From contig NZ_CP168030.1 in NCBI RefSeq assembly GCF_041529975.1, forward strand, positions 1,116,001 to 1,180,000: a stretch of DNA of 64,000 bases, written 5' to 3'. Below the pieces are notes generated by a model. The model was not told the origin of the DNA, did no database searches, and saw only the letters and a program-made list of their open reading frames with translations. Shown one piece after another: positions 2,565 to 9,552 of this stretch. The position numbers and the translations under genes were made by a program. Numbering within the stretch: the stretch's first letter is position 1; each line of letters begins with the position of its first letter. Source of the DNA: Microbacterium maritypicum. GTDB lineage: Bacteria; Actinomycetota; Actinomycetes; Actinomycetales; Microbacteriaceae.

Positions 2565-4712
<2,148 letters not shown>

Positions 4713-4756
4713 CTACAGGGTGAGATGCGTGAGGGCGCCGCTCATCACGCGACTTC
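4713..4756 (-). promoter_or_regulatory. Promoter-like element upstream of the sigma-fusion gene (copy 3)
   Basis: On the minus strand GAAGTCGCGTGATGA (4756-4742) is followed at fixed spacing by CATCTCAC (4727-4720) and a TAG (4715-4713). GTGATG and CATCTCAC are 15 bp apart, the same spacing as in the two plus-strand copies at 4884 and 5131. The element ends 27 bp before the sigma start codon, which fits an ECF-type promoter (possible -35 and -10) with a short leader. The same bases also read as a 10-codon ATG-to-TAG frame, so a tiny peptide is an alternative. Confidence 0.5.
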
Positions 4757-4883
4757 ATCATTCTCTCGCGAATCTCCCAGCTAAGCCACCCTTCCCTGCG
4801 GATTCTGAACAGATATACGGGATCTCGCCAGGCCGACCGGGAGCCCGCGGCCCGCGGGAGCACGGCGGCACGAACTTTTTTCC

Positions 4884-4920
4884 GAAGTCGCGTAATGAAC
4901 CCGAGGGGTCGCCGTCTCAT
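4884..4920 (+). promoter_or_regulatory. Promoter-like element, copy 1
   Basis: GAAGTCGCGTAATGA (4884-4898) and CGTCTCAT (4913-4920), with 15 bp between GTAATG and CGTCTCAT. The two blocks match copies 2 and 3 while the spacer between them (CCCGAGGGGTCG here) differs, as expected for -35 and -10 boxes. It is followed by CCCATAG and then by a hairpin at 4940. Confidence 0.45.
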
Positions 4921-5079
4921 CCCATAGGGACAGCCGTACGAACTCCACCGGGGGGCGGAGTTCAGGTGCTGGTGTGAAGGACATGCACCGGTCGGGCGGG
5001 TCGGGATCCTCGGGGGAGGAGAGCCCGGCCCCCCATCTCTGCACACGAGGAAGAGACCGCCGATCTGGGGACCGGCGGC
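4884..5079 (+). ncRNA. Candidate structured RNA, unit 1 of a tandem pair
   Basis: The stretch has no convincing gene but is repeated 247 bp downstream. After the promoter-like element it can form hairpin A (4940-4963, 7-bp stem GAACTCC/GGAGTTC, 10-nt loop), hairpin B (5007-5020, TCCTC/GAGGA around GGGG) and hairpin C (5057-5078, CCGCCG/CGGCGG, 10-nt loop ATCTGGGGAC). In hairpin A one pair is C-G here and T-A in unit 2, a true compensatory change. No U-rich terminator follows. Direction is inferred from the element. Confidence 0.4.
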
Positions 5080-5130
5080 CTCCCGCGTGGATCGGTCCTC
5101 GGACCGGGGTGGCTTTCCGAAGATTTTCGA

Positions 5131-5167
5131 GAAGTCGCGTAATGAATCGGTGGGGATGCCGTCTCAT
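5131..5167 (+). promoter_or_regulatory. Promoter-like element, copy 2
   Basis: GAAGTCGCGTAATGA (5131-5145) and CGTCTCAT (5160-5167), again with 15 bp between GTAATG and CGTCTCAT. The spacer sequence differs from copy 1. As in the other copies, ATG and an in-frame TAG (5142-5174) enclose ten codons; the peptide would be MNRWGCRLIP. Confidence 0.45.
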
Positions 5168-5303
5168 CCCATAGAGACAGCCGTACGAATTCCTCCGGGG
5201 GGCGGGATTCAGGCAGCGGTCGGTCGGGATCCTCGGGGGAGGAGAGCCCGGCCACCGGCTCTGAGAGGGGAACGGGGCCGTCGATCTGGGGACCGGCGGC
5301 CCC
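5131..5303 (+). ncRNA. Candidate structured RNA, unit 2 of a tandem pair
   Basis: Second copy of the repeat. Hairpin A is at 5187-5210 (GAATTCC/GGGATTC, 10-nt loop), hairpin B at 5230-5243 (identical to unit 1) and hairpin C at about 5274-5303, where the stem extends to ten pairs (GGGGCCGTCG with CGGCGGCCCC, one T-G wobble) around the same 10-nt loop. The segment between hairpins A and B is about 24 bp shorter than in unit 1. It ends about 60 bp before the nagA stop codon, with which it converges. Confidence 0.4.
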
Positions 5304-5364
5304 CCACCCGAACCTGAACGACCGGAGAGCGCAGGGTTGCGCGTCGCGCGATGCTCTGCTGCCT

Positions 5365-8099: not shown

Positions 8100-8156
8100 T
8101 GTGGCGGGGTGTCGATGTCTCCGCGTCCGCCGCCTCGGGCATCCGCTATGCTCGTA

Positions 8157-8232
8157 ACCGTCGCGACTGGCGTCTGGGTGGACTACCACCGGGGAGCGAC
8201 TGACCACGGAATTCGACCGCGCGCCTGGGCCG
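8157..8232 (+). promoter_or_regulatory. ZTP (pfl) riboswitch
   Basis: The sequence between a TATGCT -10 box (8147-8152) and glyA carries the ZTP/ZMP aptamer core as I recall it: GACTGGCG, GTGGA with ACCAC closing a stem, GGGGAGCGACT, and a distal GCCTGGGC that forms the pseudoknot. ZTP signals 10-formyl-THF shortage, and glyA and folD both feed the one-carbon pool, the classic context. Downstream CCTTT (8244-8248) can pair with AAAGG of the glyA ribosome binding site (8262-8268), suggesting translational control. No -35 box was clear. Confidence 0.85.
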
Positions 8233-8277
8233 ATAGGAACACCCCTTTCGAATCCGTCGTCAAAGGAGCATGTCACC

Positions 8278-9552
8278 ATGACCGACCGTTACTTCAACGC
8301 CCCGCTCGCCGAGGTCGACCCCGAGATCGCACAGGTCCTCGACCGTGAGCTGAAGCGTCAGCAGACCTTCCTCGAGATGATCGCCTCGGAGAACTTCGTT
8401 CCCGTCTCGATCCTGCAGTCGCAGGGTTCCGTGCTCACGAACAAGTACGCCGAGGGATACCCCGGCCGCCGCTACTACGGTGGCTGCGAAGAGGTCGACG
8501 TCGCGGAGTCCCTCGCGATCGAGCGGGCGAAGAGCCTGTTCGGCGCCGAGTTCGCGAACGTGCAGCCGCACTCCGGCGCGTCGGCGAACGCCGCGGTCCT
8601 GCACGCGATCGCCCGCCCCGGCGACACCCTGCTCGGCCTGTCGCTCGACCAGGGCGGCCACCTCACGCACGGCATGAAGATCAACTTCTCCGGCCGGCTC
8701 TACGACATCGTCGCGTACGGTGTCGACCCCGAGACCTCGACCATCGACATGGCGGAGGTCCGCCGCCTCGCGATCGAGCACAAGCCCAAGGTCATCATCG
8801 CCGGCTGGTCGGCCTACCCGCGCACCATGGACTTCGCGGCCTTCCGCGAGATCGCCGATGAGGTCGGCGCGCTGCTCTGGGTGGACATGGCGCACTTCGC
8901 CGGTCTGGTCGCCGCGGGTCTGCACCCGAACCCGGTTCCGCACGCGCACGTCGTCTCCTCGACCGTGCACAAGACCATCGGTGGCCCGCGCTCGGGCTTC
9001 ATCCTCACGAACGACGCCGAGCTCGCCAAGAAGATCAACACCGCGGTCTTCCCGGGCCAGCAGGGCGGACCGTTGATGCACGTGATCGCCGCCAAGGCGA
9101 CCGCGTTCAAGCTCGCCGGCACCCCGGAATTCAAGGAGCGCCAGGAGCGCGTGCTACGCGGAGCGAAGCTCATCGCCGAGCGCCTTTCGCAGCAGGACGT
9201 GAAGGATGCCGGCATCGCGGTGCGCTCGGGCGGCACCGACGTGCACCTGGTGCTGGTCGACCTGCGCGACGCCGAGATCGACGGCAAGCAGGCGGAAGAC
9301 CTGCTGCACGACATCCACATCACCGTGAACCGCAACGCCGTTCCGAACGACCCGCGTCCGCCGATGGTGACCTCGGGTCTGCGCGTCGGCACGCCGGCGC
9401 TCGCGACCCGCGGCTTCGGTGACGCCGAGTTCACCGAGGTCGCCGACATCATCGCCCTCGCGCTGCTGCCGGGTGCGGATGTGGAGTCGCTGCGCGCCCG
9501 CGTCGACGCCCTGGCCGCCGCGTTCCCCCTCTACCCGGACCTGCAGCAGTGA
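8278..9552 (+). CDS. glyA: Serine hydroxymethyltransferase
   Basis: A 424-residue PLP enzyme that interconverts serine plus THF with glycine plus 5,10-methylene-THF. The PLP lysine is K232 in S-T-V-H-K-T-I-G-G. Other signatures are [13 protein letters not shown] near residue 60 and [10 protein letters not shown]. Full length for the bacterial family. AAAGGAG lies 9 nt before the ATG. It is the first gene behind the ZTP riboswitch and overlaps folD by 4 bp. Confidence 0.98.

Follow-up and report, generated by a model that had tools for sequence, protein, structure and literature searches.

The window analysed here is a 64,000-nucleotide stretch (C1:1116001-1180000) of the one-contig, 3.9-Mb genome of Microbacterium maritypicum. 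Near its start lies a minus-strand gene for a sigma-fusion protein, and divergent from it, on the plus strand, are two units predicted to be transcribed into structured RNAs with hairpins H1 to H4. The sigma gene and both RNA units are each preceded by a copy of one promoter-like element. The features are as follows, in window positions and with their basis in brackets.

2565..4685, minus strand: sigma-fusion gene, 706 aa (Pfam, NCBIfam, hydropathy)
4721..4756, minus strand: promoter-like element of the sigma gene, GAAGTCGCGTGATGA, spacer, CATCTCA (exact genome search; counterparts in relatives)
4884..4919, plus strand: promoter-like element of RNA unit 1 (exact genome search, repeat comparison, relatives)
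4926..5085, plus strand: RNA unit 1, predicted transcript with H1 to H4, both ends inferred (alignment, covariation, model match of 116.7 bits)
4940..4963, plus strand: H1 of unit 1, apical CCACCGGGGGGCGG (invariant or nearly invariant apical columns, covarying stem)
4968..4992, plus strand: H2 of unit 1, loop GAAGGAC, no GGGG in the loop (covarying stem)
4998..5032, plus strand: H3 of unit 1, apical CCTCGGGGGAGG (apex nearly invariant, lower stem covaries)
5055..5080, plus strand: H4 of unit 1, loop ATCTGGGGAC, terminator-like (repeat D3; outside the covariation test)
5131..5166, plus strand: promoter-like element of RNA unit 2 (exact genome search, repeat comparison, relatives)
5173..5306, plus strand: RNA unit 2, diverged, without H2, both ends inferred (model match of 83.6 bits; repeats D1 to D3)
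5187..5210, plus strand: H1 of unit 2 (repeat comparison, folding)
5220..5257, plus strand: H3 of unit 2 (97% identical to unit 1 over 35 nt)
5275..5304, plus strand: H4 of unit 2, loop ATCTGGGGAC, terminator-like (repeat comparison, folding, count of TGGGG-loop hairpins)

The sigma protein combines an ECF-type sigma factor with an anti-sigma-like zf-HC2 domain, hydrophobic segments, a VDP repeat (residues 436-501) and a long C-terminal extension. It belongs to the ECF type by the NCBIfam model sigma70-ECF (TIGR02937; 76.5 bits, cut-off 42.9), and in Pfam the domains Sigma70_r2 (33.6 bits, cut-off 24) and zf-HC2 (31.4 bits, cut-off 22.2) are recovered, with Sigma70_r4_2 scoring 22.9 bits, under its cut-off of 25.7. 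Hydropathy has its maxima around residues 243-265 and 325-360, and membrane attachment of the factor is predicted from these maxima alone. A carbohydrate-binding domain in the proline-rich extension is a feature of ECF52 proteins, whereas our Pfam search (E <= 1) found no carbohydrate-binding family in the protein. As no such domain was found, we call the factor ECF52-like only.

Among the 120 database matches of the sigma protein listed of 1014, the named ones belong to Microbacterium with about one exception, the best being 99% identical. The sigma gene adjoins the element in 36 of 40 regions fetched around likely copies of the element in relatives, and most of these 36 regions also carry nagA, hexosaminidase and glyA genes in the same order as the window (neighbors were named by similarity to the window's own genes). 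In addition, second sigma genes of the same type were observed at the loci L167-L175; they are 45-52% identical over the first 230 residues and show no upstream element by the pattern applied. The glyA-like gene of the window (8278-9552) lies downstream of a ZMP/ZTP riboswitch (RF01750, 51.8 bits) at 8153-8237.

The original prediction described one promoter-like element in three copies, and these are indeed present at minus 4748-4721, plus 4892-4919 and plus 5139-5166. All three contain GAAGTCGCGTRATGA and separate GTRATG from CRTCTCA by 15 bp, with TAG and RGAC coming after; taken as an extended block, the minus-strand copy runs from 4756 to about 4713. An exact search of the 3.9-Mb genome for GTRATG-N15-CRTCTCA returned three matches, all at this locus, and the reversed control returned none. 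With two mismatches allowed, 184 genomic matches compare with 73 for the reversed control, and near-exact copies alone are therefore informative. The two plus-strand copies sit in a duplication (247-bp spacing, 84% identical over 96 nt) and so are not mutually independent within this genome, while the sigma copy is; independent support is provided by the relatives.

A fourth site with the exact spacing lies elsewhere in the chromosome (G000:C1:2851633-2851662, minus strand), and approximately 125 nt separate it from the start of the downstream gene, whose predicted product is a sortase-type surface protein of 517 aa with an LPLTG C-terminus and the domains Big_8 and DUF5979. This surface gene site (L080/L176) is among the five further matches of a relaxed search of the same genome. 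Another of them (L082) has a spacer one base longer and precedes a short ORF, and the remaining three (L076, L079, L081) were rejected as regulon sites, being located by eye inside ABC-transporter coding sequence.

Across 149 genomes of the genus the exact pattern matches 57, and many of the hits, chiefly those starting with GTGATG, look by eye like chance occurrences in coding sequence. The sigma gene of many relatives is preceded by CGCGTGATGA-N14-CGTCTC, and in these sigma-gene elements the base after CTC is mostly T, in contrast to A in the RNA copies. A generalised rule, derived from the first 37 loci (chosen by a narrower pattern, or the window itself), was applied to 88 sigma loci, comprising the window and 87 loci from relatives. 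It gave 117 matches in 47,570 bp of intergenic sequence and none in 742,044 bp of flanks. The spacer is exactly N14 in 116 of the 117 matches, though lengths of 8-19 were allowed (14 is counted after one extra fixed base and corresponds to the earlier N15), and its sequence varies while its length is fixed. Matches point toward the RNA at 65 loci, toward the sigma gene at 45, in both directions at 38 and in neither at 16. At the 51 loci picked by sigma homology alone, 35 have at least one match and 16 have none. In three lineages (L117, L157, L160) the sigma-gene element looks degenerate by eye and G-loops are few, a possible joint loss of promoter and RNA.

A similar picture emerges from CGCGTNATRR-N14-CRTCTC, which is found in 85 of the 149 genomes (174 matches, against four for the reversed control). 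A sigma ortholog is present in 81 of these 85 genomes and in 16 of the 64 that are free of the element, with a Fisher p of 2e-20 that serves as a guide only, the genomes being related; the four element-bearing genomes without an ortholog are G046, G070, G084 and G124. Sigma matches at E <= 1e-55 occur in 103 of the 149 genomes, in 97 as an ortholog and in six only as a weaker paralog, with the ortholog cut set at a best E <= 1e-77 by our own choice. The element could alternatively be the operator of some DNA-binding regulator, or a repeat that has spread, a reading that would suit the tandem duplication of two of its copies. We regard this as very unlikely, given the orientation of the elements toward the sigma gene or the RNA, the near-uniform spacing over variable spacer sequence, the empty 742 kb of flanks and the co-occurrence with the sigma ortholog.

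The element thus appears as a two-block, directional motif of fixed spacing that tracks the sigma gene genus-wide and precedes both this gene and a divergent structured RNA, in the manner expected of an autoregulated ECF promoter; by sequence, one element recurs before the sigma gene and its putative targets. The original prediction is partly supported in this respect: its proposal of self-activation and of two driven RNAs agrees with these patterns, but the small closed circuit that it envisaged is opened by the fourth site before a surface-protein gene and by more such sites in relatives.

Each RNA unit is inferred to start near CATAGRGACAGCC, after which the hairpins follow in the order H1 (CCACCGGGGGGCGG), H2 (often AGGGG), H3 (CCTCGGGGGAGG) and H4 (ATCTGGGGA, terminator-like). 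The H4 loop contains TGGGGA and the H3 loop CGGGGGA; TGGGGA is absent from H1, which is among the most conserved loops, and from the H2 loop of unit 1 (AAGGAC). A TGGGG-loop hairpin was identified at 37 of 37 loci, a count that takes the most stable one per locus, which is not always H4, and that has no shuffle control. Folding of single sequences is only mildly better than that of shuffles (z = -1.82 and -0.91). A small ORF within the RNA was considered and rejected: the ATG of unit 1 is missing in unit 2 (by eye), and the stems covary. A G-quadruplex joining the loops was considered as well; H2 of unit 1 offers only AAGGAC for it.

For a comparison among relatives, eleven places found by the pattern were dropped because they had no H3 match (four were sigma-gene copies), 39 distinct units passed the H3 rule and 31 of these were aligned; near-duplicate, H2-less or very divergent units were left out (unit 2 of the window, both L048 units, unit 2 of L064, and L038, L053, L055 and L059). 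In the alignment, 22 of 33 pairs have changed on both sides, and none of 500 shuffles reaches any of five measures. Of all cells, 92.8% are paired; shuffles give 85.0%, and sliding the pairing partners leaves 55.1% at most. These figures are favored by the prediction of the structure from the same 31 related sequences and do not cover H4. The stems vary, whereas the loops of H1 and H3 are almost constant.

A covariance model detects the RNA in 50 of the 149 genus genomes, 45 of them at E <= 1e-5, and in all of these 45 the match adjoins a sigma ortholog. In 297 genomes of the order, the model gave four matches within the genus and one weak match outside it (E 0.003). No Rfam family matches the RNA at its gathering score. 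GGGG hairpin loops are strongly enriched, both at the 37 pattern-chosen loci (122, against 17.8 in shuffles) and at 48 sigma-chosen loci (89, against 21.2). CCCC loops show no enrichment over the same shuffle control (5 against 8.0 and 13 against 12.2, respectively), and one strand is therefore selected; these counts took 85 of the 88 loci, three being too short. Since the 48 sigma-only loci still show an excess of GGGG loops, the covariance model misses divergent copies of the RNA. In genomes G008 and G011 the sigma gene is accompanied by adjacent G-rich stretches and no model match. A second RNA-like unit was also seen in G133 (L071, 2826-2855 and downstream), with the same promoter element, a sequence unlike that of the main RNA and four GGGG stretches near inverted repeats.

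The stretch between nagA and the sigma gene might consist mainly of terminators with no function in trans, which would fit H4, a terminator-like hairpin positioned where the convergent nagA has its 3' end. Terminators, however, need neither a conserved upstream promoter element nor nearly invariant G-loops in other hairpins, nor would they favor GGGG over CCCC in their loops, and we consider this explanation highly improbable.

Some of the elements found away from the sigma locus point toward surface proteins. Of 39 listed off-locus sites in the genus genomes, counting the fourth site of our genome, inspection by eye places about a dozen in front of genes for predicted surface proteins, several of which have sortase-type ends. 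Behind the rest the same inspection finds small basic ORFs, other genes or RNA-like hairpins, apart from a few sites that resemble chance matches. Chance seems likely for L187 (by eye, at a transporter gene end) and L201; the sites of L195, L204 and L207 also overlap a high-GC3 frame, with L204 nonetheless preceding a surface gene. In other species, small basic ORFs with an RSTF/YVP-like motif were observed by eye directly behind promoter-like sites (L179, L194, L200 and L206, the motif reading ATYVP in L206), and at L199 a predicted surface protein of very large size has, by eye, this same motif in its N-terminal part. In another species, a surface protein encoded after a promoter-like site (L178) contains the VDP repeat of the sigma fusion again, in the form of a PVDP linker.

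Passing 37 off-locus loci through a gene caller yielded a gene within 320 nt of the site at 17 loci and no called gene at 20; several of the 17 genes are of unrelated function. TGGGG[GA] lies within 20 nt upstream of a possible start in nine of the 17 genes, compared with eight of 391 background genes (p = 6e-10), the latter obtained under an identical calling rule from sets of orthologous loci that overlap. All seven off-locus genes with an LPxTG- or LAxTG-like C-terminus carry the motif before the start. The p value is optimistic, because three of these seven genes (L176, L191 and L193) look like orthologs, background loci overlap, and the match of at least one of the nine motif genes (L197) seems to lie inside the frame. 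Display of the mRNA motif in a hairpin loop was not supported: a loop is predicted in nine of 12 cases, but often with shuffled flanks too, and only one of 12 is stabler than 95% of shuffles.

How the RNA could be connected to these genes allows several readings. RNAs such as CsrB and RsmZ are decoys with repeated hairpins whose G-rich motif also occurs near the start codons of target messages. Sequestration of CsrA in this fashion would be in line with the multi-hairpin layout, with GGA in several RNA loops and with the presence of CsrA in the genome (E 3.1e-20). Its gene is located at G000:C1:991205-991357, and CsrA was found in 25 of 58 genomes searched, our own included. Among 35 genus genomes, 7 have both CsrA and an RNA-model match, 6 the RNA only, 6 CsrA only and 16 neither; CsrA thus accompanies 7 of 13 genomes with the RNA and 6 of 22 without it, a weak and non-significant tendency (p 0.16). 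Two of the six "CsrA only" genomes are G008 and G011, in which the sigma gene is present. Against this reading, CsrA is absent from six of the 13 RNA-bearing genomes (five at least 99% complete, with G005 and its near-perfect RNA among them), the tendency is less evident when the sigma ortholog replaces the RNA (9 of 22 against 4 of 13, p 0.72), and CACCGGGGGGCG, among the most conserved loops, lacks GGA. CsrA was hence discarded as an obligate partner of the RNA; a weak association may exist, and sequestration of CsrA by the RNA is in our view very improbable.

The main rival to a decoy is an RNA that acts by base pairing with C-rich targets through its G-loops. Nearly invariant G-run loops on covarying stems fit seed loops. 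A C-loop partner might be expected in the manner of 6C RNA (RF01066), a small RNA of Actinobacteria with homopolymer C loops, but 6C-type candidates in the genome stay below the cut-off (28.3 and 24.2 bits, against 47). The RNA itself does not match RF01066 at the gathering score, and the genome holds only sub-threshold 6C matches elsewhere, so that neither the partner nor a family assignment to 6C is supported by Rfam or genome scores. In addition, the link to the surface genes is one of common sequence and not of complementarity. RpoE-dependent small RNAs provide a precedent for pairing in the sections of PMC8103513 considered here. On balance, base pairing is a possible but rather unlikely explanation.

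We favor a model in which the sigma factor switches on its own gene, both RNA copies and the wall-protein gene, with the RNA as a decoy for a factor that binds the GGGG motif; for this model as a whole we see about an even chance, and its parts differ in strength. It is very probable that a sigma factor freed from the membrane transcribes itself, the RNA and surface genes. The zf-HC2 domain and membrane segments of the protein would keep the sigma domain silent at the membrane until proteolysis releases it, similar to what has been proposed for ECF48, ECF52 and ECF53; in the portions of PMC8999054 and PMC5826349 consulted, the C-terminal part of ECF52 factors is proposed to restrain the sigma domain until a protease cuts. 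Once free, the factor may read CGCGTRATG-N15-CRTCTC, as genomic co-occurrence and strict spacing suggest, and from the positions of the element it would then raise itself, the RNA and, in this genome, the 517-aa sortase-type surface protein. The decoy part, in which the RNA titrates a factor recognising GGGG near the start codons of surface genes, is more tentative. It builds on the G-runs in the RNA loops and on TGGGG[GA], which is rare near starts generally and frequent behind off-locus elements. Such a factor might be a trans-acting repressor of surface-gene messages, and its titration would free their translation. A narrower version, a CsrB-like decoy without CsrA whose G-loops copy a TGGGGA ribosome-binding motif of the sigma factor's surface regulon and so lift a putative actinobacterial translation repressor, is speculative and rather less likely than otherwise.

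To our knowledge, the partners of regulatory RNAs in Actinobacteria are little understood. The locus offers a compact, conserved case, in which an ECF52-like fusion, a very specific promoter-like element and an adjoining structured RNA without an Rfam family occur together, and in which surface-protein genes and RNA loops have a rare near-start motif in common. In the open literature we found no report of such an RNA or element in Microbacterium, and the word "Microbacterium" is absent from the main texts of PMC11109978 and PMC8632094. Sigma-dependent small RNAs are already known from proteobacteria, with RpoE, MicA and RybB as examples in the sections of PMC8103513 covered; for Actinobacteria, our searches of the open literature gave no account of a conserved G-loop RNA divergent from the gene of a fused ECF sigma factor.

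The closest known counterpart of the sigma protein is the ECF52 factor SCO4117 of Streptomyces coelicolor, which, in the parts of PMC5826349 and PMC8999054 used here, likewise comprises a sigma domain, zf-HC2, one or more hydrophobic segments and a long C-terminal extension with a proline-containing repeat, and for which autoregulation has been proposed. The motif proposed for it, CSGYN-17bp-SRHA (PMC5826349, same parts), differs from CGCGTRATG-N15-CRTCTC, and the term "small RNA" is absent from the main text of that paper. The promoter read by a fused ECF52-like sigma factor becomes testable with the present locus, a question that the authors of the SCO4117 work also ask in the portion of their text considered. 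RpoE (sigma-E), an envelope-type sigma factor, controls surface proteins as well as the small RNAs MicA, RybB and MicL (PMC8103513, in part); here, in contrast, sigma factor and inhibitor-like domain form one protein, the RNA units adjoin the sigma gene divergently, and several hairpin loops of the RNA display runs of G. With 6C RNA our RNA shares small size, an actinobacterial host and homopolymer loops, although its loops are of G and not of C. Finally, compared with CsrB and RsmZ, the motif consists of four or more G instead of ANGGA, the RNA is shorter, and CsrA does not strictly accompany it. The resemblance lies in repeated hairpins with a G-rich motif that is also found near the start codons of putative targets. 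The locus makes it testable whether Actinobacteria use CsrA-independent decoy RNAs.
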